Shown: piece by piece, positions 1 to 60,290 of the stretch
Position numbering within the stretch: position 1 is the stretch's first letter
Layout: every line of letters starts with the position of its first letter
From: Antedon mediterranea
Lineage: Eukaryota; Echinodermata; Crinoidea; Comatulida; Antedonidae
Assembly: GCF_964355755.1 (NCBI RefSeq)
Contig: NC_092670.1
Span: forward strand, 35,265,795 to 35,329,794
DNA: 64,000 nucleotides
Direction: 5' to 3'
Notes under the pieces: generated by a model
Databases searched by the model: none
The model's input: the letters and a program-made list of their open reading frames with translations, nothing else
Told to the model about the DNA's origin: nothing
Program-made: the position numbers and the translations under genes

Positions 1-223
1 TACTCTCTTTCCGTTTTACATTAATACACTAATTAATATTAAGACATAGGCATTTTTCGTTGAAATCCTTACTTGTGGATGGTTACGGTACAAAATCATC
101 ATGTAGAATTGGAACGCCAGCTTCATGTTTACACAATATGTAGAATTTACACGACAAATGTATTAGTCTCATCGATAGTGATAATGTATTATAATGTGAC
201 AGATAGAATACCATCCTGAGATG

Positions 224-340
224 AGAGCGCCTTTATTAATTACTCACCCCTTATGTGGTCTAATTATACGTCATTTTGGTATTTTCCATGGATCAGAAAT
301 TCTGAAATAAAAGATTGAATTGAATTGAATTTTTATCCAG
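224..340 (+). repeat. Possible LINE-type 3' end with (TTGAA)n tail
   Basis: The stretch ends in GAAATAAAAGATTGAATTGAATTGAATT, that is, an A-rich signal followed by TTGAA repeats. A similar end in the opposite orientation occurs near 6330-6400. Short pentamer tails of this kind are known at the 3' ends of CR1/L2-like non-LTR retrotransposons. No coding part remains. The rest of bases 1-1420 shows no gene. Confidence 0.4.
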
Positions 341-1420
341 ACAGGGATAATTGTGTAATATTTTGTATATAATAAACATTATGTAGTTTAATTCACATTA
401 AACACAATCTTGTTTTGTTAGGTAGACCAACAAATGATAATGTTAATGTCAAAACACTGTTTTACAATCCATCCCTTGCGTCTACTAAACAGTATTTTCG
501 ATGAAAAAAATATGTTCAAATAAATGAGGAATTATTGTGCAGATTGACTTTAAAATCCTAGTTTAAATTTTGTTAATATATCATTAATTAAAAACCTTTA
601 ACATAGGATAAGTGTAATGTGACTGAGTGATAGACCTACTGAAAATCAATATTAGTTCAACATACATCACGGTATATAATGATTGTTTACATTTATTAGG
701 CCTGTTTTCTATGCGCGAATCGAACATTTCTTGAGTTCTGATTGGTTGCGCATTTTTTGACGTCACAAAAAGTAGAAAACATTGATAATACTCATGCGCA
801 TTAGTTAACACTTTCGATTAGTGCGAATAAATTCGCCTAGTGAAAAACCGGCTTTACTTACGGGGTCAACTAGGATTTCTAGCGAGGTGCAGACATACAT
901 TGTATTTTCAAAGAAAAGAAGATTTTTTTTAAAGTTAACAAACTTATTTCTCAATACTTAAAGTATTCGACTTAAGCATGGGCGCATCGTGTCAGTGTAT
1001 CTTTTTATTTGATTGGTTTATTTCGTATGACGTGCCTTTTAGTACTATAGTTTTAAAATGTTCTATTAAACGGTTCTATTGCATGATCAGCTTTAATTTT
1101 AAACCTGCAACGTGAATTACTGGAGAACTGAGCGATGTAATTAGTTCCCCTACTTGTCTTCATGTTTGGTTATCTTTGAAATATTTTATGGATAATTTTT
1201 GTGTGTACATCGCTTAGAAACATTGCGCTATACAAGACTGCTATTATTACTATTATCATTTTCAATGTTTCTGGTATCCAAAATGGATTATTAGGTAAAT
1301 CTGTTTTCAGGATGTCCTTTGTCTACATTGTGACGTTAATATCTACCAATACGACCTTCGCCTTCTTGTCTAGTGTCATCACCTTTCCAATAGGAGACAC
1401 CCATTTCATTATTTTCTTAA

Positions 1421-1574
1421 AGCTCTGTCTACACTATCAAACTTTACAAAACAAATGTGATATGCCATTATATGGAGATGATGTCATATCACTACCATAT
1501 TTTTGCATATCACTACCAAAATTGGGTACATCCCACACTTTTTGTCAAACTAGTTTGATAGTGTAGACAGTGCT
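1421..1574. mobile_element. Family A short inverted-repeat transposon, copy 1
   Basis: Both ends carry the inverted motif AGCTCTGTCTACACTATC / GATAGTGTAGACAGTGCT. The inner part holds ATATGG and ATATCACTACCATAT blocks that recur in every copy of the family. It has no coding capacity, so it is a non-autonomous, MITE-like element. The flanks are TTAA on the left and TAG on the right. Confidence 0.8.
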
Positions 1575-1619
1575 TAGAAATATAATATTATATAGACGTT
1601 TAATACAGTTTGGACAGTT

Positions 1620-3450
1620 TAAAAAAAAAGATCACAATATACATTCATTCCCACGATTAGGAAGTTTCGATTTAGTTTAGATAACAAACACCCCGACCGC
1701 AATTCAAATGCCTTGTGTGTTGCATTCTTTATTAATAATAATGATAATGTCGTAAGTTCAACAAGTCAATGAAGTAGGCAAACGAATAGTTTAATTATTG
1801 GAAGAAATAGAACAGTGTAAATTACCGTATTATTATTACACGTATTATATTTAGTATAGTACGGTATTTTGCCATATAGGCCTAATGTATATATTTTTTA
1901 TTTTGACATAATTTACTCGATATATAAATGTTATTTCTTATAGTGTATTTTTCCTAAACTTCAATGCATTTTGCAATACAATTATGTATTTTTTATAGAA
2001 TTATTTTTATTGTTGTTTACCCGCAAATTATTTTTGTTTTAAATAAGTAAACAACATTTGAAAAAAACATAAATGTGCACACTATAATTATTGAGGCTGT
2101 TATATGCCTATACGTCTAAATTTATCATAACATATCAAAATACTAAATGTTGAAAACGTAAATAAAAGTTATTTATGTAACTACTCTACTTTTGCGCGGC
2201 AAGAACAATTAAAAAAAATCACCTGTCCGAATTTACTTTTTAAAGTTGATTTTAAAATATGGTAATGAGATGGCTGTTATTAGGTGACATTAGGGACGAC
2301 AACCTTTGAATTGTCACGTTTATCCGAAATGAATATATAACACTGGATTATACTAATCTATATGCAGTAATTTTCACATTATAGGATTAAACAGTTCAAA
2401 TTTATAAAATTTACGAATAATGATAGTGTCACTTGATAAAAAAATTTGTAAATTAATAATACAGATTGCATTAATATATTGAAATTGAAATCTTTAGGGA
2501 CATAATATTTAATATAAGAAATATGATGACATTGCGATGGCCGTTTCGGGTTGTTCGAGAGATTATTAAAAATGTTTTCTTGCAATTTTCAGGAGTAGGT
2601 GGGGATTTTAGCCACTTAGGCCGAGAGTTAAAGAGGGATTAGACAATATTGGTGTCCTGCTTAAGGGGAAAGCTGCTCATTTTCTTCTGGCTGAATATGC
2701 CACTGAGATTGGTTGATTTATAACATGGGCGTGTGTGGATTTAACGAGTAATTTTGATATACAATACAATTTCCACAATATAACAACGGCCTTATGCAGT
2801 ACATGAGATGTGTTTATGTTTACTCACAATTTACTGATAAATCACAACGTTTTTTATTCGTGATTTGATAAATAGAATCAAATAGCATAGTTATACAATA
2901 TTTAAATTCAATATTTGTACTAGGCTTAGTATTACTGTTATATACTTTACCATTGTCCTCGCGAGTAATATGCCTACTCGACAGATACTCGAGAAATTGA
3001 AATTATCCAACCTGAGGTGAACAAAATACAAAATGATTGTTAGCATTTTGTTATTTACTATATTATTTATATTATTAAAAAAATATAAAGTTAGGACGGT
3101 TGATGTTGTTTACCCTTATTAAACTGGGTCACTAGTAGTCAGAGGAACTGAGGATTCGGGCGGATTAGGTGATATGTACGCGACCTGTCTCGATTCTACT
3201 TCACATATCTTAAAATTATCCAACCACTCTTCGATCTACAATCGGAAACGTACAGAATTTCCTAAATACTTATTCAATTTGTTGTCGAAAAAAATAGGCC
3301 TAACCTGACATTTATATTAATTATGCAGTGCAAAACTACCATTTGTGTCGGTGGAACTTATAGCATCGGGTGGCCGACTTGGGCAACAGGATGTGAGGCA
3401 CTAAAACAATTGCGACACACTAACATTGGGTGGTATAAATTGGCGTAGAA
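1620..3450. other. Non-coding stretch, no gene seen
   Basis: AT-rich sequence with only short open frames, none with a convincing start, homology or splice pattern. I see no RNA gene or clear repeat apart from scattered AGGCCT words. Confidence 0.6.
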
Positions 3451-3461
3451 AAAATGTCTTA

Positions 3462-3699
3462 AGCTTAGTCTACACACTATCAAACTTTATGTGACAAAAC
3501 AAATGTGATATGTCCATATATGAACATGATGATAACATCACTACCATATTTGGGCATATCACTATACCATATAAGGAGTCGCAAATTTCGCGAGGATCGT
3601 CATTGCACAATGCATGATGGGAAGGGTTTGGAAGCAAACGTTATGACCCGTACGTACGCGTATTTTTTGTCAAACTAGTTTGAGATTGTAGACAGAGCT
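3462..3699. mobile_element. Family A transposon, copy 2 (long variant)
   Basis: Terminal motifs AGCTTAGTCTACACACTATC and GACAGAGCT are flanked by TTA on both sides (3459-3461 and 3700-3702). This is the clearest 3-bp target duplication in the family and fits the TWA duplications of PIF/Harbinger elements. The copy has an extra internal segment of about 80 bases, around 3570-3660, that other copies lack. Confidence 0.8.
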
Positions 3700-4312
3700 T
3701 TAGCAGAAAAGCCAAAATAAATTAATCTAAATGTTATAAATGGCTTGTAGCATACCGTAGGACTAAAGCTGGATGACAATCGTTTGATCTTCAATAAAAG
3801 CATCTCTATTGAAAAATAAATCGTGCATCGTTTGACCGCTTGGCGAAGGATGCTCCCAGAGGTGGTACCTATATTTATCTACTAGGCCCTACGCTTGTCA
3901 ACCATTAAATCTGCTACCAGTATTATACCAATGGGATCAGTTGTCAGACGACAAACATTGTGACGGCTTACTTTGATGCGTTGAAAAACCCGACATAGCA
4001 TTGTTCCCTACGTCACTGTTCTGTCAGCAACCGGAAACGCGTCATTCACTGGAAATAAAAGTTGATGACATTGATATGGATAAATATAAATGCAACCGTC
4101 GTCTGTATATTTACGTCACAATAATTCCCAAACTTCCCGCCAAATCTACCTCGCGAAAAATATGTCTAAAAATAGAAGTATAAATCTTATTTTATCTATC
4201 CAATATCAACTGGCTACAGATCGTATTTTTAATTTATAATATTTATTGTTACACTAAAATACATTTTCAACGAGCAATGGTAAGTAGTGTATACCCACAA
4301 TATTGTAATTTG

Positions 4313-4660
4313 TGCACTTATTTGTACCCCAAAAACATGAAAAATGAAGATTAATTAAATCAGACTTTTAATAGGTTATTTTGTAGTTTTAATACAGTTA
4401 ATCGCTTCCGTAGAAATTACCGAAAACAAATAATGTTGTCACTTAGAAAAAGACAAAATAAATGCTAAAATTCAACCAAAACCAATTAGCTGGCAGCCAG
4501 TTTGACTATTTTTTTGCTTTAAATTACAGTTTTTTCAGGTAAATACATTTTTTCAATCCAATTTTTGGTCAAAGTGGATAACTATTATTGACATTTAAAT
4601 GGCATATTTAACAAAAAAATGTTTAAGAATTATTTTTTCACGGGAACAATACATCTTTAA
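4313..4660 (+). mobile_element. Family C inverted-repeat element, copy 1
   Basis: The right end reads GGGAACAATACATCTTTAA. The degenerate left end and the interior (ATGAAAAATGAAGATTAAT, a GCTGGCAGCCAG-type block, TTTTTTCAGGTAAAT) match the copies at 8024 and 38272. It has no open frame and looks non-autonomous. Confidence 0.7.
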
Positions 4661-4984
4661 TATTTATAATTACTTATTCTCATATTGTATAATAATAATA
4701 ATTTGCCTTTGGATTTAAATAAACAATAAAGTATATGTCTATATGGATGCAAGAATATTCTAGATTTTTCAGCTTGTAATGAATGAAAAAAAGGAAAACG
4801 TTCTCAATCGGAAATTTAATATTTGAATAAATTAAAATCCAGACACAGACAATACGTTCTAATTTTATCTCATTTGTAAGAAGAAATTGTTTTATTCATC
4901 ACAATGAATCATTCCAAATATGGCAATGATGGAACAATGCTAGTTTAATTTAGTTTTTCATCATTTGACTTGTTTCATTCGTAA

Positions 4985-5138
4985 AGTCTACACTATCACA
5001 TGTTATGTGACAAAAAAATGTGATTTGCCCAAATATGGTAGTGATATACCAAAATATGGTAGTAATATGACATCATTATGTCCATATATGGTCACATCAT
5101 ATATTTTTTACATAAAGTTTGATAGTGTAGACAGAGCT
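4985..5138. mobile_element. Family A transposon, copy 3
   Basis: It begins AAGTCTACACTATCAC and ends GATAGTGTAGACAGAGCT followed by TTA. The interior carries two tandem blocks of the CCAAATATGGTAGTGATAT type. It lies about 200 bases upstream of the tRNA gene. Confidence 0.75.
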
Positions 5139-5345
5139 TTACTCTGTCAGCATCTGTACATTTATCTGTCCATCAATTTTGCTTTATTTTGTCAACTTTT
5201 ATCTACGGGTATAATCTTTATTTTTGTATTTCTTTTTTTTTATTGTTCTTTATATATATATATAGAGGACTAGTGCTGTTCCGCCGTACCACGCCAAGAA
5301 TGTTAAAGAGTCGCTATCCAATCGAGTTCGAACAATACCATGAAA

Positions 5346-5417
5346 GCCCCAGTGGTCTAATGGTTAGGACATCTGCATATCAAGCAGGCGGTCCGAGTTC
5401 GAGTCTCGGTTGGGGCG
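5346..5417 (+). tRNA. tRNA-like gene, anticodon AUC, Glu/Asp-type body
   Basis: A complete cloverleaf can be drawn. The acceptor GCCCCAG pairs with TTGGGGC. The D stem is GTCT/GGAC, the anticodon stem TCTGC/GCAGG with loop ATATCAA, and the T stem CCGAG/CTCGG with loop TTCGAGT. The discriminator base is G. The anticodon at 5379-5381 is ATC, which formally reads the Asp codon GAU. The D-arm (TGGTCTAATGGTTAGGA) is typical of eukaryotic tRNA-Glu, while G73 suits Asp. Glu and Asp tRNAs share U35 C36 and differ at base 34. An unmodified A34 is not normal in either. The internal A box and B box are present, and a T5 run follows at about 5420, as expected for Pol III. It could be a functional variant, a mutated tRNA-Glu copy or the head of a SINE. 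Confidence 0.75.
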
Positions 5418-5481
5418 ACTTTTTCTCATTCTCACAGATTTCCTCATCTTTATCGTTTCAAATTAATTAATTAAATTTCAG

Positions 5482-49470: not shown

Positions 49471-49475
49471 GGGTC

Positions 49476-49479
49476 TTAA
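49476..49479. repeat. Left TTAA target site of the two-gene transposon
   Basis: TTAA directly abuts the left terminal inverted repeat and is matched by TTAA at 57813-57816 beyond the right one. Four-base TTAA duplications are typical of Kolobok and piggyBac elements. Confidence 0.7.
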
Positions 49480-49507
49480 AATGGATATGAAACAATATCA
49501 AAATATC
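49480..49507 (+). repeat. Left terminal inverted repeat
   Basis: AATGGATATGAAACAAT is an exact 17-base match to the reverse complement of the right end. Beyond that the two ends stay alike but imperfect for about ten more bases. Confidence 0.8.
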
Positions 49508-49627
49508 AACAAAAATAATTTTGTATGAATGCTTTACATATGAAATAACACCACACCAAAAATTAGGTTTAAATACCTTGTAAAACTTGAGAAATAAATA
49601 AGTTAAAATTCAGTGTAAAACCATCGA

Positions 49628-49657
49628 AAGATGGCCGACCAACCATCATGCCATCTT
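49628..49657. promoter_or_regulatory. Dyad AAGATGGC/GCCATCTT in the left subterminal region
   Basis: AAGATGGC at 49628-49635 and its reverse complement at 49650-49657 face each other, about 150 bases inside the left end. AAGATGGC resembles YY1-type promoter sites. It could also be a transposase binding site. It is too far from the start codon (51036) to assign firmly. Confidence 0.35.
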
Positions 49658-49699
49658 GGATTTTATTAACGTTCTAAACAAACGTACGCGGAATCTTCC

Positions 49700-51030
49700 G
49701 ATTAATTTAAAACGCCCGCTTTTGCATCCACGGCAGCAGCTGTTTCGTGATTGGTTAAGAATGCCCAACTACAGCCAATGAGCTTCTTTCAAAGCGGACA
49801 GGAAGCGAACGTAAACAACACACGTCATACATCACACACACGATACACACATGTCAAGCCGATTCTAGGCTAGGCCGGCCGACCGAGTGTTTACATTTTC
49901 TCCAATATTTTTACCTAATGAAGTTTTTTGCATAAAACCTAATATGATATAAGCCCAATTGAAGGACAATGGTAGTAGTAGACGGCAAAAGACGAGAGCA
50001 CCTCTTGAATGGACCTTGAATGATGATGGATTGCCTTGAATATCACGCATCGTGCATTAAACTAAAAAGGTGGACAATTTGTACCTGATGAAAAAAAACC
50101 GGGTAAGCTCTACTTTTTTATTCGTGACTCTAAATAATGGCCATCATATAAACTGTAGTACAGTATTATTAAATATATGAATTATATTATTTATTTAATT
50201 TAACCTTTTGTTTACTAAAAATACTGCTGTTAATTCAAGTTACAAGCTTGACCTATATATTATTATTACTCAAACTTTGTTTACTCGACCATTACTGGGC
50301 AGTAGCTAGGCCTACCTATGGTACCAGTCGAGTTTTAGGGGCTATACCAATTACCTTTATATATATTATATACTTACTATCTTTTATCTTTGCAGATGGA
50401 ATATTGACTTGTTGTGGCAAGAAATGCAAGGAATTAAAAACTGATTTTACAGCATTGTAGATTTATGTTGCATTAATAATAATTCTATTTAAACATAGAA
50501 GAATCTTAAAATGTGGACCAAGGAGTATTGTTCAGATTTATAAACATTTTAATTATATAATAAATAATATTAATAAATGTTTTAGTCAATTTGAAAGAGT
50601 AGGGCCTATATAATTTTATATTTATTTAATTTCTTGCTGAATGAAAATAAATGAATTAAATGTACACTTGTCTCAATACTATTTTTTATATTACACACCT
50701 AGTCAACCATTTTCAAACATTGGCCTATTTTTGTTCACCATTTATTTATGATGTAGCTGTCTACCTAGTTGTTGAAATATTGGATCGTTATCAAGCTTGG
50801 TTAAAAACAATGGCCAATACTGTATATACTTATATAGGACAGGCAGCTCTATCATTGCAAAAAAATTTCAGAAATTTGTCTGTCCAGCGTCAGCGTGTGA
50901 CACACTGACATGACCCTTTGGAAAATCCATAGAGGAGGCATGCGCGTCCTCTGGGACACGTTGGTTTGAGAAAAAATCGAGTTGAATACAGTGCAGTCGT
51001 CCAGTTGGATAGTACAGTATAAGGTTTTCC
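49700..51030. other. 5' region of the transposase gene
   Basis: No complete gene. A donor-like CCGG|GTAAGC at about 50100 and an acceptor TTTGCAG before 50396 are followed by a short frame, DGILTCCGKKCKELKTDF, ending in TAG at 50459. This could be a small upstream exon or a relic. I could not connect it in frame to an ATG. Confidence 0.4.
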
Positions 51031-51035
51031 GAACA

Positions 51036-54000
51036 ATGCCTAATGCGTGCTGTATTGGGGGGTGCAACAGGACCCCAACATCCCACCCACATGTATCCTT
51101 TCTCCTTTTTCCAAGCCAAGTGGACCAAGTGGAAACTTTCAAAAAATGGGAGGATTTCGTAAAACTAACTAGAAAAGGATACATCTGGAAGCCGTCTCAT
51201 AAAATATGCACCGAGCATTTTTGTATAGAAGATAACATAAACCACACCGAAATACAAGAGATGGGAAAGAAGGGGAAAAAAATAAGATACCGTCTTCGTC
51301 CTGGCGCTTTCCCAACATTGAAATCGCCAGTAATAGAAGAGAATAGGGATGATAGCACGAAGCCAAAAAAGAAGATGCGGACCTGTTATCGGAGGCGAGA
51401 GGTCAATAGGGTAGGCATACAGTACTCAAATCACAAAACATTTTGTTTATCATAAATTGCCCAGATAGAATATTGGTATTTTACTAAAATACAACTTACG
51501 AATAGAAACAATCTCCATTTAGGCCTAGGTCCTAATTTATGAATTGAAATATAATAATTGTGGATAGAAATAATCTCCGTGTAGGCCTAAACTTCTTCGT
51601 AGATGCATGACGGCTAATTTAAAAATAGCCAAATTTTGAACGCGCGTTACGCACAGTACTTTTTAAATTGCCGTACGAAATAATGGAATGCGGCATACAG
51701 GGTCTAGCATTGTCACTAGACTCTATAACTTATTATACCGTCTTAGGCCTACAATCGTTTTAGATTAGTTCAATCTGGTAAATACGCATAGGCCAAAAAA
51801 ACGCAGAAATTATTTATTTATTTCTTCTTTTTTTTTTCAGATTTTAGCCAGCCGTGGTCCAAGTACATCGTCGGTAAGTAGGCCTTTTTCACGGATGGCA
51901 AACAATGCTGTGCAGGGAAGCGTAACCAACAGAAATAACATAGCACACCACAGTAGTGTATAAAAGCATAATAGGCGCCGCAACTGCATCGCGGGAAAAA
52001 CGGTGGTGACAAACGCTTATGCTTATACACGGGTGTTTTTTTTTTATGGATTTTAAGCGAACAAAAAAAACAATTTCTAATTTTTTTTCAGACATACAGT
52101 GATGTTTTAGGCCAATCTTTTAAGAAAATGTTACAGTAACTTTATTTTCTCATACGATCATCCATCCGTTCAGGGGTTACAATTTTTTAATTAACATGGT
52201 GTCTTCACTATTTTTTTTTACGCTTCCCTGCACAGCATTGTTTGTCATCGGTCGAAGATGTCTTCCATTTCGTGAAAAGGCTTATACAAAAAGTCTATGC
52301 CTATCTACCAATTAAAATTAATGCAGGGAGTCGTCATTAGATTAATTTTGATTAAATCCCTATGGAAACTATTACTAGTACTGTTTTTTAAATGTAATAA
52401 TTACTATATTTTTGTACATAGGCACAAGGACAGTATGTGCAGTCTTCAGGTAATGCCAATATTAATACTAAACTTTTTTACATTGATGATTCTGTCTTCA
52501 CTATCAAACTACTATGCTTACATATGATGGTTCTATGACATCATCATGTCCATATATGGGCACATCACATTTTTTTGTCACATAAAGTTTGACAGTGTAG
52601 ACAGAGCTTTAGGCCAATTGTTTTTATTGCACACTTATATATCTTAATTTGATGTAAATCAAATACTTGTCAATGCTGTTTTTTGACATGACAAATTTAC
52701 TTACACAATAGATTCAGATGATGAAGGAAGAAATATAAGAGGCACACGTGGCGCATTCAATTTATATTCGGAATCCGACAGTGATAGTGACCATGACGAT
52801 GCAGATGCGGACTACATTGCTCCAGATGACCAAACAGATTATATAGAACCAGCGGATACTGTTAGAGGTCAGCGAAAATATATCGTTGGTCAAAGAGAAT
52901 TAATGGCTCTCTTTGACAGGTGTCGGCAGTGTGGAGGGAAAGCAGATAGAAAAATAAAGAGAGAATGTGGAACAGCAGTAGAGATAGAGTCAAAGTGCAG
53001 AAATCGAAGTTGCGGCTATCAATTTGAATGGATGAGCCAACCAAAACATGGAAAAATGTTTTTGTTTAACATTCTTTTGTCTGCCGCTATTCTTGTGTCA
53101 GGTAAGATAAGGTTTATTCTTTTTAATTTTTATGAAGGCTTGAAATAATCTAAAAGTTTACGGTTCAATCAACATGGACACTATTTACAGTACATAAATA
53201 CATTTTTTTATATTTCTAGGTTGTTGTATAACACAGTTTTTAAGAGCTATAAGATTTTTAAACATTGCAGTTTTTACTGATAGAACATATTTTTACCACC
53301 AGAAATGGTAAGTACAGTACAACTATTATTATATTTTTTAAATGGTCTATCGCATTCATTTACTTCTGCTGCCTCTCGCTTATGGAATGACCTACCCGCC
53401 TCAATTCGATCATGTTCTTCTACTATCGCCTTTAAATCTGCCTTAAAAACTCAAATTCAAATTAGCTCTCTCATACACCGTGCCTTTAATCACTTACTGC
53501 TGGAATTGGCGCTTTACAAATTTGTATTATTATTCACAGCAATAAACGCTCATTGGAGCTCGATGATGTGTTATGTTTTTTTTTAGGTATTTGCTGCCAG
53601 CTGTGTCCTGTGTTTTCGCAGCGCAGAGAGAACACAATTTCAAGAGCAACATGAATATTTCATGTGATATGCGCTGCGATAGCCCAGGACATACAGCCAA
53701 GTTTGGCACGTATACCACAATTGATGCAGACACCCATAAAGTAATCCACATTGAAGTGGTCCAAGTAAGTCGTCAAGTCAAATTTTCTCCATCTTCATTG
53801 TACCATAATACTTTACCTGTACTGTGCTTATAACAATTATTGGTAATAACTTTTTAACTGAATTTGTTTTACAGAAAGATGAATGTTCGAATTCACCAGC
53901 AATGGAACTGGAGGGGCTGAAAAGAACATTGATGGTTTTAAAAGGTTACGGAGTTACCGTGGAAAGAATTGTTTCCGACAGACATAGTAGTGTAGCTGCC

Positions 54001-55402
54001 TACCTCAAAAATTCCATGCAGAATATAATACACTACTTTGATGTGTGGCATGTTGCTAAAGGCAAGTATTTAACTACTTCAATTCATCACCTTTGCTGGA
54101 CCAGCACTAATATGGTACATGATTATTATTATTAAATTATACACTCAACTGTTCAGTACAGTAGTCCATTTAATTGCCAACAATCTTTAAACACAATTTT
54201 TTTATTTTTTTAAAAATAAAAAGCGTGTATACTATTTGAAGATGTTTAATATGATCAAACTGCTTAGTTAAATAATATAAAAACTGTATTTTCTTAAATT
54301 GACATGCAGGTGTAAAAAAACAATGTCTGAAGGGTGGAAAGCTTAAAGACTGTGACCAGATAACAAAATGGATCAAATCTATTGTAACTATGATTTATTG
54401 GATTGCGTCAACTACACCCGAGACTAAAGATTTGAGTTACGACAAGGAACTAAGAGTCCAAAAATTTAAAAGCATATACAATCATGTAAGAGGGATACAT
54501 GAACATGAAACTCCATTGTATCCCAAATGCATGCATGGTGAACTGGAAGAACGGGATTACATTCTCCCAAGTAAGTATCTCATGTGTATAATTAAGTAGT
54601 AACCAATCTCAATCAAGGGAAAAATTGCACACTGACAAACGAACATTTTACAATTTTACAATGTTTACTGTAATGTCTAAACACATGATTTGTTATTATC
54701 TCGAATACAGGCTCTAAAGCTGAGGAAGTTTTGTCAAAGATTCTGAATTCTTCATATCTTTTAAGATCAGTTCAACAGTTATCACCTACTATCCAGACAT
54801 ATTCTAACGAATCATTCCATCAAGTTATCAATCACTTCGCTCCAAAAATGCATCCATACCGTTTCAAGGGAATGATTGCAAGGTAGTATTATACATCTTC
54901 CCAAAACAAGCTAAAAAATGAAACAAACAAAAATAACTCGAGTCATTGGAATGGTGAAAGACAAACAAATTTTTTACTATTTTCAGAACGTACATTGCTG
55001 CACTGCATTGTAATGAGAATGTCGGACGGTGCCAGCAAGAAAATAAAAAAGGCGAGAAAGAGTATTCATTGTGGTATTCTAGAGCCAAAAAAGACTGGGT
55101 GGCAAAAAAACATTTAGTTAACCCCACTTTTGGTAAGATTGATTTATTTATTTAAAAAATATAACATAATTATATGTTTTCTGTAATCGAAAAGTCTTAT
55201 TAATATTTATTTGGTTTTCCTTTCAGAATACGCAATTAACGTCATTGAAATGGCAATGTACATGGCAAAAACAAATACAAAAGAACTATATTACACACCA
55301 GAGATAATGTGTGACCCAGGCACTATTGCAGAGAAAATGCCAAAACCTGACAAAAATGAGTTTGTAGCCCAGTTATTAAGCAGATTTAAACCTACAACAT
55401 AA
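51036..55402 (+). CDS. THAP-domain DDE transposase, 10 exons, 664 aa
   Basis: Exons: 51036-51410, 51852-51873, 52712-53101, 53220-53307, 53587-53764, 53875-54061, 54310-54570, 54711-54882, 54987-55132 and 55227-55402. Exon 3 onward is phase-consistent to TAA. The tiny second exon is the least certain: acceptor 51851 makes the phases agree, while acceptor 51840 would need a different first donor. The first ATG opens a THAP zinc finger (MPNACCIGGC, C5-x4-C10, then C58-x2-H61 and GAFPTL). An acidic linker and a C4 cluster (CRQCGGK ... CRNRSCGY) follow. Candidate catalytic residues are D319 or D323 in SCDMRCDSPGH, D386 in VSDRH and E568 in CNENVGR. D407-V-W-H410 is a DxxH motif. Proteins of this type cut and rejoin transposon ends. 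Intron 6 begins with GC. The superfamily is inferred as Kolobok-like. A domesticated gene is the alternative. Confidence 0.92.
51899..52244. repeat. 27-bp perfect inverted repeat in transposase intron 2
   Basis: 51899-51925 and 52218-52244 are exact reverse complements (CAAACAATGCTGTGCAGGG ... CCCTGCACAGCATTGTTTG). Weaker pairing continues outside (CCTTTTTCACG against CGTGAAAAGG). It is probably a small nested inverted-repeat transposon, beginning just after the exon 2 donor. Confidence 0.75.
52490..52608. mobile_element. Family A transposon, copy 9, inside the transposase gene
   Basis: The left end CTGTCTTCACTATCAAACT and the right end GACAGTGTAGACAGAGCT followed by TTA match the family. 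It lies in intron 2, so the element jumped into the larger transposon without harming it. Confidence 0.8.
53345..53534 (+). pseudogene. LINE ORF2 tail fragment in transposase intron 4
   Basis: The encoded peptide SHSFTSAASRLWNDLPASIR followed by STIAFKSALKTQ is the standard C-terminal end of CR1/L2-type reverse-transcriptase proteins. The 3' end GGCGCTTTACAAATTTGTATTATTATT is the usual LINE/SINE tail. It is heavily 5'-truncated. It makes up most of a 279-base intron. Confidence 0.75.
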
Positions 55403-55418
55403 TGAATTGGAGTCTACC

Positions 55419-57298
55419 TTATCTATCCAATGGTGGATATTTGAACCCTGTGTAATTGTTGGCTTCATCTGGGAAAACATCTCGTATTTTTTTCATAACA
55501 CAAGATGGCATTGGTATTCTTCGGTCCTTGCCAAGAAACCCCCAGCACCAACGTACAAATTGGCGGTATGCAGTATATCTGTATCGCCTGGAAAAATGTA
55601 CAAACAAAAGAAAAATACATGTTATTGTGTTCAAATTATTTATTTATTTGTCTTGTAAGATTCCCGTCATGTACATTCCTCCAGTTGGAAATTAATAGTA
55701 GATTGATATACATATGATATGATGTAATATATTTTTACTTTGCTTTTTACTTTTACTCTGTACAGTACCTTTCTATTGCACCTTCCACCACATGTTCTTG
55801 GTATTGCGAGACATACTGCCAATACGCAATTTGTAGTGTTGCTGGGTTTAAAATTGCAGGTTCGAACCATGGGTGTGTTGTTACGCACCCAGTGTGCTGA
55901 GGTCCCTCCTTATTTTTGTTGTTGATTTTTTCTACCTGTAACAAAATACAAAGAAAACATGTAAAAAATTTATTTAAAGCCAAAAAATAGTTGGTCCGAG
56001 TCAGATTTAATGGGTTTTTGGTTATATTAAGCCATTTATTTTGTCTTTTTATTTACTAAAACTGTAAAACGGCCTACCGTACTATATTCGAAATTTGATT
56101 TTATATCTTCATTCTTCATGTGACAATGCAATTCTTGAATTTGTGTTTTTTCTGAAAATAATTAATTATTAGAAATTAATATTACCTGTTGGCAACAGTA
56201 TCTATTCTCCCATGTTTCTTCTTCCACACAGTTTCCACATTCACACCTATTTAAACAAAATCATAGATTACACATTAATGTGGCTCATTGTTTCCTACTT
56301 TCGCAACGTGTATAGTAGAGCCCTAAATATATACAGTAGATAATTAATATGATTTGTGAAAGTGTAGTTGCAGTAATTTTAATGTACTGCCTAATTTAAT
56401 TAATTATGCCTACATTTAGTCATTACATAATAATAGGTTGTACTAGCATACTATTACTAGCCTAGGCCTAATGTACAAAATGCTAATATGGTGGACTGCC
56501 TCTCTGCTTAGCTAGCCTACCATACATACCTACTATACTAATCTACTCTGTAGTCTATTTTTTATATTCTAAAAGTAATTCTCCTACCTAGCCTAAAATA
56601 ATACTAATAGTAGCCTACTACTAGGCCTGGTAATTATAATAACTACAACTTCCTGATACTGATAGTACTAACTAGCCAGGACTAGGCTAGGCTATATCAT
56701 ATATGAGCCTACTAGTTAGGCCTATAATAGTAGTAGTAGGACTATTGAATATAGCCTAGGCCTCTAGCTCTATCTCTAATATAGCTAGGCCTAGTAGCAG
56801 GTGGACTATATTTATATAGGCCTAGCTAGGCCTAGGCCTCTGTACTAGGATAGGCCTAGGTTCAGCTAGCCTAGGCCCTTAGCCTGGCCCTACTAGTAGG
56901 CCTAGGCAGGACAGGCAGGGAGGCTTTATTTTCGCGTTGAGTACAAAGAGTGAAAAATCTAAAAGGTGGGAACAGCAGTAACTCCAAAAGAACTCCAAAA
57001 GTAGGTCTAAAAAAACGGGGGGGGGGGGGGGGGGTCCCATCACATTTCTCTTACTTATCGCTTACCATTCTCGACCTTGCCTAACATGCATGTTAGGTGG
57101 AAGCCCAAACCGTCCGAATTCCCTGGCCCGACGAGCGTCAGGAGGTAGGCCTAGGCCTAACCGATCGTCTGCTGCGGGCCTTTGCAATGGTGGTAGACGT
57201 GGGTCATTATCGAACGGTCTTAAATTGTCAGGATTTACTGGTAATAAATCTTCTTCTATTTCTATATCCGCTACAAAATATTCCTCTTCACTATCCAT
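55419..57298 (-). CDS. P2X7-ballast-like cysteine-rich protein, 4 exons, 209 aa
   Basis: Exons on minus: 57298-57066, 56246-56186, 55935-55769 and 55587-55419, all GT-AG with agreeing phases and a TAA stop. The first in-frame ATG (57298) opens an acidic segment (MDSEEEYFVADIEIEEDLLP) and a Pro/Arg-rich linker. The rest matches the intracellular C-terminal domain of P2X7 receptors in order: WCECGNC, YCCQQ, GCVTTHPWF, YRYTAYRQFVRW, IPMPSCVMKKIRDVFP and NYTGFKYPP. In P2X7 this 'ballast' binds two zinc ions and a guanine nucleotide. Here there are no transmembrane helices or ATP-binding ectodomain, so it is a soluble stand-alone form. It converges on the transposase gene. A role as a transposon accessory protein, for example in nucleic-acid or nucleotide binding, is inference only. 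Confidence 0.88.
56440..56920. repeat. TAGGCCTA/CTAG-rich low-complexity tract in an intron
   Basis: Dense, irregular repeats of GCCTAGGCCT, TAGGCCTA and CTAGCTAG-type words, nearly all self-complementary, in intron 1 of the ballast-like gene. There is no fixed period. The same AGGCCT core is scattered through the whole window. Confidence 0.8.
57017..57034 (+). repeat. Run of 18 G
   Basis: An uninterrupted G run on plus, so C on the strand of the ballast-like gene, just inside its first intron. It could form a G-quadruplex and is prone to length change. Confidence 0.95.
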
Positions 57299-57660
57299 TC
57301 CAAAATGATGATAAAAATAAACTAAACACTCCTCCGCCGTCGATAGTGGAAAAAAAATGGCGTCGGGGTTTCTCCATAGCGATCGTCGTGTAATTGATAT
57401 TTTCACACATGCGCACTGTATCTACGTTTCTCCAGCTTCCCGGTGCAAAACGTTAGTCAATTTGCAGAAGATCGCCATAAGAACAGATTTTAAAATTCAT
57501 TTTAAAAAATAATCGGTTGACAAACAAACAAAAATTTTATCCGAAAACATTTAAAACATATTCATAAACAAAAATGTAAAGCGGATAAGCCAACGCTGTA
57601 ATAGTATAGAGCCAATCTGCAAAAGTCTGTGAATGACGGATTCTCCTAATGCAAATTTTT

Positions 57661-57682
57661 CTTTTTGTGACGTCACAAAAAG
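57661..57682. promoter_or_regulatory. 22-bp perfect palindrome centred on TGACGTCA
   Basis: CTTTTTGTGAC is followed by its exact reverse complement. The centre is a consensus CRE (CREB/ATF) site. It lies about 365 bases upstream of the ballast-like start codon and 130 bases inside the right end, so it may be a promoter element or a transposase site. Confidence 0.6.
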
Positions 57683-57784
57683 ATTTTTTGTCACCGATTG
57701 AGGGGGACCCAGACGTCCATAATATTTAGCATAAAGGTCACTGACATGATTCTATGCGTACTTTCCGATAATGAAACTAACTCA

Positions 57785-57812
57785 TTTTTTTTAACATTGT
57801 TTCATATCCATT
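57785..57812 (-). repeat. Right terminal inverted repeat
   Basis: It ends ATTGTTTCATATCCATT, the exact reverse complement of the left end, followed by TTAA at 57813-57816. Confidence 0.8.
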
Positions 57813-58030
57813 TTAAGATTACGAACTCAGTCGTGTTGAGGCATAATTAAGGTGTTCAAGTATTAAAATCGATCGCTGGTGGTAGGTGAGTATTGCGGCT
57901 ATATAAACGATTAAGGTTCCGTATCATGTTAAAATAAATAAATCAAATCATTACGGATAATAGCATAAATAGCCCGGCAGTAATAGCTATTCTATACTTG
58001 GTATTTCAGCTTTCTATTTACAGCTTTCTT

Positions 58031-60290
58031 TCCTCGGGATCTTCCGCATTTGTACCTCAACTCCCGTCGGGATCTACCGAATTTGTACCTTATCTCCCCT
58101 CAGGATCTACCGAATTTGTATCTCATCTTCCCTCGATATCTACCGTATTTGTACCTCATCTCCCCTCCGGATCTACCGAATTTGTACCTTATCTCCCCTC
58201 AGGATCTACCGAATTTGTATCTCATCTTCCCTCGATATCTACCGTATTTGTACCTCATCTCCCCTCGGGATCTACCGAATTTATATCTCATCTTCTCTCG
58301 GTATCTACCGTATTTGTACCTCAATTCCCCTCCGGATCTACCGCATTTGTACCTTACCTCCCCTCGGTACCTACCATATTTGTACCTCGACTCCCCTTCG
58401 GATCTACCGCATTTGTACCTTATCTCCCCTTTGGGATCTACCGAATTTGTATCTTGTCTCCCCTCCGGATCTACCGCATTGGTACCTTATCTCCCCTCAG
58501 GATATACCGAATTTGTACCTTATCTCCCCTCGGGATCTACCGAATTTATATCTCATCTTCCCTCGGTATCTACCGTATTTGTACCTCAATTCCCCCCCGG
58601 ATCTACCGCATTTGTACCTTACCTCCCCTCGGTACCTACCATATTTGTACCTCGACTCCCCTTCGGATCTACCGCATTTGTACCTTATCTCCCCTTTGGG
58701 ATCTACCGAATTTGTATCTTGTCTCCCCTCCGGATCTACCGCATTGGTACCTTATCTCCCCTCAGGATCTACCGAATTTGTACCTTATCCCCCCTCGGGA
58801 TCTACCGAATTTATATCTCATCTTTCTTCGGTCTACCGTATTTGTACCTCATCTCCCCTCCGGATCTACCGCATTTGTACCTCAATTCCCCTCCGGATCT
58901 ACCGCATTTGTACCTCATCTCCCCTCGGGATCTACCGAATTTGTACCTTATCTCCCCTCAGGATCTACCGAATTTGTATCTCATCTTCCCTCGATATCTA
59001 CCGTATTTGTACCTCAATTCCCCTCCGGATCTACCGCATTTGTACCTTATCTCCCCTCCGGATCTACCGTATTTGTACCTCAACTCCCCTCCGGATCTAC
59101 CATATTTGTACCTCATCTCCCCTCCGGATCTACCGCATTTGTACCTCATCTCCCCTTTGGGATCTACCGAATTTGTATCATCTTCCCTCCGGATCTACCG
59201 CATTTGTACCTCATCTCCCCTTTGGGATCTACCGTATTTGTACCTCATCTTCCCTCGGTATCTACCGAATTTGTACCTTATCTCCCCTTTGGGATCTACC
59301 GAATTTGTACCTTGTCTCCCCTCCGGATCTACCGCATTTGTACCTTATCTCCCCTCAGGATCTACCGAATTTGTACCTTATCTCCCCTTTGGGATCTACC
59401 GAATTTGTACCTTGTCTCCCCTCCGGATCTACCGCATTTGTACCTTATCTTCCCTCAGGATCTACCGAATTTGTACCTTATCTCCCCTCGGGATCTACCG
59501 AATTTATATCTCATCTTCCCTCGGTATCTACCGTATTTGTACCTCATCTCCCCTACGGATCTACCGCATTTGTACCTTATCTCCCCTCAGGATCTACCAA
59601 ATTTGTATCTCATCTTCCCTCGGTATCTACCGTATTTGTATCTCAACACCCCTCCGGATCTACCGCATTTGTACCTCATCTCCCCTCAGGATCTACCGAA
59701 TTTGTATCTCATCCTCCCTCGGTATCTACCGTATTTGTATCTCATCTTCCCTCAGGATCTACCGTATTTGTACATCAACTCCCCTCCAGATCTACCGCAT
59801 TTGTATCTCATCTCCCCTCAGGATATACCGAATTACGAATTTGTATCTCATCTTCCCTCGGTATCTACCGTATTTGTATCTCAACACCCCTCCGGATCTA
59901 CCGCATTTGTACCTCATCTCCCCTCAGGATCTACTGAATTTGTATCTCATCTTCCCTCGGTATCTACCGTATTTGTACCTTATCTCCCCTCGGGATCTAC
60001 CGAATTTGTATCTCATCTTCCTTCAGTATCTACCGTATTTGTACCTCAAATCCCCTTCGGATCTACCGAATTTGTATCTCATCTTCCCTCGGAATCTATC
60101 GTATTTGTACCTCATCTCCTTTCGGTATCTACCGCAGTTGTGTCTTGTCTGGCCCCAAGATCTACCTCATTATTTTGTACCGCATCTCCTTCGGTATCTA
60201 CGGCTTTTGTATCTCATTATTTCCCCTCGGGATCTATCGGATTTGTAACTCGTTTCTCCTTGGGATCTATCGGATTTGTATCGTTGTCAG
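58031..60290 (+). repeat. 33-bp minisatellite, about 68 copies
   Basis: The unit is GGATCTACCGAATTTGTACC plus TYATCTCCCCTCG, with variants (GAA/GCA/GTA; Ser-codon changes; occasional 34-base units with CTTTGGG). Because 33 is divisible by three and the unit has no stop in any plus frame, all three frames stay open (up to 765 codons at 57998-60295). They read 11-residue repeats such as GSTEFVPYLPS, DLPNLYLISPR and GIYRICTLSPL. The long frames start at TTG rather than ATG, and 34-base units shift the register. A protein is therefore unlikely. Confidence 0.92.

Follow-up and report, generated by a model that had tools for sequence, protein, structure and literature searches.

The 64,000 nucleotides of Antedon mediterranea DNA analysed here (the window) contain a transposon of 8,341 bp (49476..57816, both TTAA copies counted, assigned to neither strand). 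It is very likely an autonomous Kolobok element of the Kol0 type in which a KolX gene lies convergent with the transposase gene and encodes a P2X7-ballast-like protein with seven cysteines, which probably binds zinc and on which the element itself depends. The preliminary description had placed the ballast gene physically within the mobile unit. This is borne out, and KolX is a functional part of that unit, since both genes are enclosed by element ends at six of seven loci from other families, since many families pair KolX with the transposase, and since KolX is constrained in the one pair of families compared. The pairing of KolX with a transposase and its link to P2X7 are not new, having been published in 2022 (PMC9587614). 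What is added here is a young, intact two-gene copy, a test of selection, the finding that the pair recurs in different families, and a nonautonomous family that lacks the transposase and in which KolX appears to be broken.

The element is flanked by TTAA at 49476-49479 and 57813-57816. Its left terminal inverted repeat (49480..49503, + strand) starts with 5'-AA and matches the right one (57789..57812, − strand), which ends with TT-3', at 22 of 24 nucleotides; the 30-nt inverted arms (49474-49503 and 57789-57818) are 93% complementary. The stretch singled out in the preliminary description (49480-57812) is exactly what falls between the two TTAA copies, with the matching ends inside, and the TTAA and inverted ends do enclose the two genes reported there, a THAP transposase gene and a stand-alone ballast gene, both of which prove to be intact. 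Among the 20 largest of the 57 direct-repeat families listed for the region there is no long terminal direct repeat. An empty site was not found and could not be demonstrated, because the flanks are unique (when joined, they match the window locus only) and a single assembly was searched. A 33-bp tandem array of ~68 copies (58032-60280), overlapped by a 765-codon open frame, adjoins the element.

An element that targets TTAA could instead be a piggyBac transposon with an acquired KolX-like gene, and some published piggyBac families do have a C-terminal part resembling KolX (PMC9587614). Both ends of the window copy have the form 5'-RR and YY-3' (AA...TT), and RR...YY termini are the mark that separates Kolobok from piggyBac (PMC9587614); by this rule the termini argue against a piggyBac element. 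The proteins point the same way. In a Pfam scan with E values up to 1, the transposase matched THAP alone (PF05485, E 1.2e-10) and no piggyBac domain, and KolX has all seven cysteines, whereas the piggyBac versions lack most of them (PMC9587614). We therefore regard a piggyBac origin as extremely improbable.

The transposase gene (51036..55402, + strand) encodes 677 amino acids in 11 exons (51036-51410, 51841-51873, 52422-52449, 52712-53101, 53220-53307, 53587-53764, 53875-54061, 54310-54570, 54711-54882, 54987-55132, and 55227-55402), with the THAP domain in exon 1. The KolX gene (55419..57298, − strand) encodes 209 amino acids in four exons (57298-57066, 56246-56186, 55935-55769, and 55587-55419). 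The genes lie on opposite strands with their stops 16 bp apart, and are thus convergent. Both gene models are stop-free, and 12 of their 13 introns have GT-AG borders; the exception is a GC-AG intron of the transposase gene, after 54061, the other nine transposase introns being GT-AG. Reading by eye, we found RCDSPG, VSDRHS, DVWH, and YSNESFH in that order in the transposase, as candidates for a DDE core with a C/DxxH motif and with no profile match over them, and a single cysteine with no CCHC finger between the first and the second D. A CCHC finger after the first catalytic D is described for KolobokP, KolobokE, KolobokD, and Kolobok5, and Kol0 is described as having none (PMC9587614). Kolobok transposases are usually THAP-bearing (PMC6004289), and a C/DxxH signature is common to Kolobok, P, hAT, MuDR, and Dada (PMC9587614). 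Nested in transposase intron 2 is a foldback repeat (51880..52263, no strand assigned) with 46-nt arms that are 85% complementary. It is present in all three transposase-bearing copies that we opened (the window and two copies on C4), and dozens of relatives at ~75% identity are dispersed in the genome.

According to Kojima and Bao (2022; PMC9587614), Kol0 elements code for KolX in addition to a transposase. Like the window element, Kol0 of the Kolobok-1_XT type has a TTAA target, RR...YY ends, and a second gene for a seven-cysteine KolX; its transposase is of the DDE type, for which the window transposase has candidate motifs (PMC9587614). Against Kol0 we see no difference in kind. The window copy has many introns and is both intact and young; its placement in Kol0, by the features shared with that lineage, is probable. 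KolobokP, KolobokD, KolobokE, and KolobokH likewise combine a Kolobok transposase with an accessory protein, which in those lineages is a nuclease or a helicase and not KolX (PMC9587614).

With the corrected gene model, the sole match of KolX is to the Pfam family P2RX7_C (PF20478, E 7e-19), and residues 67-205 match the P2X7 structure 6u9v (2.4e-14). Published KolX proteins match P2X7 residues 476-595 and have seven cysteines (PMC9587614). We aligned KolX from seven of the eight families opened, leaving out L034, in which one exon was not identified. All seven cysteines of the published zinc motif are invariant in this alignment, as are R82, Y86, R87, W92, R102, I113, R114, and P118. Mapped through the 6u9v alignment, R82 corresponds to rat R546 and R114 to rat R578. 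In P2X7, GDP is contacted by R546, H547, R574, R578, and K583, and R546 and R578 are conserved in invertebrate ballast proteins (PMC7016195). The window KolX keeps two of these five contacts, with Y in place of H547, M in place of R574, and D in place of K583. Given the seven invariant cysteines, KolX likely binds zinc; nucleotide binding is possible, although just two of the five contacts remain. The likeness to the P2X7 ballast thus comprises the sequence match, the seven cysteines, and the invariant R546 and R578 positions, and the difference is that KolX stands alone, with no P2X channel part.

Upstream of the first KolX cysteine cluster, four of the eight families (L033, L035, L036, and L037) have a motif [PG]Yx[FLYM]EP, in the forms PYx(F/L)EP or GYxFEP, which may be a docking peptide. 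It is absent elsewhere in the same stretches in all six frames. As the window copy does not have it, the motif forms no part of our explanation.

Selection was compared in one family pair, the window element and a relative on C2 (L038), between which silent sites are saturated. KolX exons 2-4 gave pS 0.78 and pN 0.15, and six of the eleven transposase exons gave pS 0.83 and pN 0.13; KolX exon 1 had no match in L038 and was excluded from the counts. In this pair, the constraint on KolX is about equal to that on the transposase.

We then scanned the genome (18 contigs totalling 354 Mb; the window belongs to C1) for both genes. The P2RX7_C model gave 70 matches, merged into 66 ballast loci, and there were 120 matches to the transposase core and 75 to THAP. 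Within 12 kb, 37 ballast loci have a DDE match, 37 a THAP match, 43 either, 31 both, and 23 neither, where random placement with approximate contig sizes expects 0.40 loci with a DDE neighbour and 0.42 with a THAP neighbour. The arrangement also recurs: the nearest DDE match is on the opposite strand and on the 3' side of the ballast gene at 33 of 37 loci, and the nearest THAP match at 35 of 37. Seven further families were each represented by one opened locus. In six of them, TTAA-RR inverted ends enclose both genes, so the two genes do recur together between TTAA-flanked inverted ends, each time in another family; at the seventh, L034, enclosing ends were not found. The end scan of these families sought RR...YY only, and their RR...YY termini are no independent test. 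As a chance control, 2,775 mismatched pairs of ends from different families gave no inverted-end match.

These results bear on whether a single Kolobok insertion might have picked up the ballast gene by chance, as a host gene or passenger. A THAP or ballast host gene could in principle adjoin an element, and three Kolobok-type loci have no detectable KolX (see below). Against this stand the recurrence of the tail-to-tail pair at dozens of loci, the enclosure of both genes by TTAA ends at six of seven loci of different families, a constraint on KolX about like that on the transposase in the compared pair, and the absence of any listed ballast match within 1 Mb of the genome's two P2X receptor loci, both on C3. 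We consider a chance host passenger highly improbable; on recurrence, end controls, and selection we rejected a chance repeat or a host passenger gene as the explanation.

KolX is not universal among Kolobok-type transposases in this genome. Of 69 transposase clusters, 37 have a ballast match and 32 have no P2RX7_C match within 12 kb. Seventeen of these 32 are single-match clusters, two of which are whole single-exon cores, one with a ballast match 19 kb away; another of the 32 is the copy at C4:14.21 Mb, which ends before KolX. We opened four ballast-free clusters and found a broken KolX at one and no detectable KolX in the stretches of 7.4-9.5 kb at the other three, from which the lack of universality follows. 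Kolobok lineages with a transposase alone have also been published (PMC9587614). Three tandem Kolobok-type transposase units with ~7 kb spacing lie on C5 (G000:C5:15229361-15246140); in the middle one, the unit that we opened, KolX was not detectable.

Within the window's own family, the exact 21-mer of the ends occurs 12 times, and allowing up to two mismatches gave 87 matches, against 4 for the reversed control. The left 625 bp has 40 scored matches among 89 candidates, self included, and nine reach at least 82%; the right 658 bp has nine matches, self included, one of which is a 40-base fragment. At the window and eight other loci, the family ends have TTAA in 10 of 11 cases and TTTA in the remaining one, with unrelated flanks. 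Three of the copies that we opened, namely the window, C4:13.68 Mb, and C4:14.21 Mb, contain transposase exons, with a DNA identity of 93-100%. At C4:13.68 Mb, every exon of both genes was matched (transposase exon 9 partly and exon 10 with gaps) in a copy that lacks its first 133 bp and has two insertions. At C4:14.21 Mb, only element bases 1-5439 were matched, so that this copy stops before KolX. Hence the copies of this family are not consistently ballast-free, which would have counted against the preliminary description: the window and C4:13.68 Mb have both genes, and C4:14.21 Mb is cut off earlier.

Six shorter relatives count against that description. They consist of ends and internal noncoding DNA (one, of 2.4 kb, has both ends), and the stretches fetched contain no transposase exon and no ballast-core exons; a piece of KolX exon 1 is retained in four of the six. 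At four further loci with ends at 81-93%, the transposase-core search listed no match. At C4:12.47 Mb, one transposase exon has 95% amino-acid identity and others have stops, with no ballast match within 12 kb; this locus and the three Kolobok-type loci with no detectable KolX likewise count against that description. Substitutions between the window and C4:13.68 Mb affect 0.48% of KolX (3/630), 0.85% of the transposase, and 0.76% of the noncoding DNA. These values do not differ significantly, and no constraint is measurable between these young copies. The two are recent copies that are drifting, and absent constraint is expected of recent insertions.

The THAP domain of the transposase would recognise the element ends, and the RNase-H/DDE core would excise the element and insert it at TTAA, by a cut-and-paste chemistry that we infer from the family. 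KolX may serve the transposition complex as an accessory factor, and with moderate confidence we take it to be such a factor rather than one of expression control, nuclear localisation, or host defence. Alternatively, KolX might be kept outside the transposition complex for its interaction with the host, by damping DNA-damage or innate sensing or by controlling expression. What the GDP and zinc sites do in the P2X7 ballast is still to be established (PMC8410900), and Nanor is proposed to be a domesticated KolX (PMC9587614), both of which leave room for a host-directed role. We find this less probable, though deserving of some weight, as KolX follows the transposase gene in position and, in the compared pair, in strength of selection.

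The P element suggests a more specific form of the accessory-factor reading. In its transposase, which also bears a THAP domain, the RNase H core is split by a GTP-binding insertion domain whose task is to position the end of the transposon (PMC7776569). The window element resembles it in the THAP domain, and guanine nucleotide, a proven cofactor of the P element (PMC7776569), also binds to the P2X7 relative of KolX. The difference is that the GTP-binding domain of the P element lies inside the transposase, whereas the ballast-type protein is encoded separately. By analogy, KolX might act in trans as the guanine-nucleotide module, which in the P element is built into the transposase, GTP or GDP on KolX might gate Kolobok transposition, and the P2X7 ballast would then be a captured cofactor whose nucleotide and zinc sites are relics. 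We offer this as a speculative proposal, and a rather unlikely one.

The preliminary description had also proposed that a ballast-bearing transposon offers a route for the spread of the domain. Both the pairing and the P2X7 link were already in the literature (PMC9587614). There, P2X7 is proposed to have arisen by fusion of a P2X4-like gene with KolX. Capture of an ancient ballast domain by P2X7 had been argued earlier (PMC7016195), in a paper whose available text contains neither 'transpos' nor 'Kolobok'. That the P2X7 ballast is a captured KolX remains a published proposal (PMC9587614), and nothing here contradicts it; the P2X loci on C3, with no listed ballast match nearby, fit the published view that the capture took place on the vertebrate line. 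Being clean, apparently young, intact, and two-gene, the window copy lends itself to work on the function of KolX, and that function would be relevant to the presence of a zinc- and GDP-binding ballast in a mammalian immune channel.

Lastly, 13 of the 23 ballast loci with neither a DDE nor a THAP match within 12 kb, all at 45-48 bits, belong to a nonautonomous Kolobok family of ~3.1 kb (L004-L017 and L019-L023, e.g., G000:C1:7266652-7269769) that has no transposase match. Four of the 13 were read at both ends and are ~3.1-kb TTAA elements, and across the genome their ends pair up 14 times, at spacings of 3.09-3.15 kb and flanked by TTAA at either end. The same ends bound two-gene loci at C3:31398484 and C5:9447872. 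KolX in this family is inverted relative to the ends and has 72-73% DNA identity to the two-gene KolX (11 above-threshold copies). In L004, the one copy translated, it is out of frame and interrupted by stops in the stretch from the CC pair to the CIT cysteine, and this stretch is common, bar small indels, to 16 of the 17 copies aligned (from 20 loci). We rejected ballast-only elements as a separate functional kind, the KolX being apparently broken and the ends shared with two-gene loci. From the shared ends, the inverted and out-of-frame KolX of L004, and the stretch common to 16 of 17 copies, we read the ~3.1-kb elements as probable nonautonomous hitchhikers, and not as evidence for the usefulness of KolX alone.
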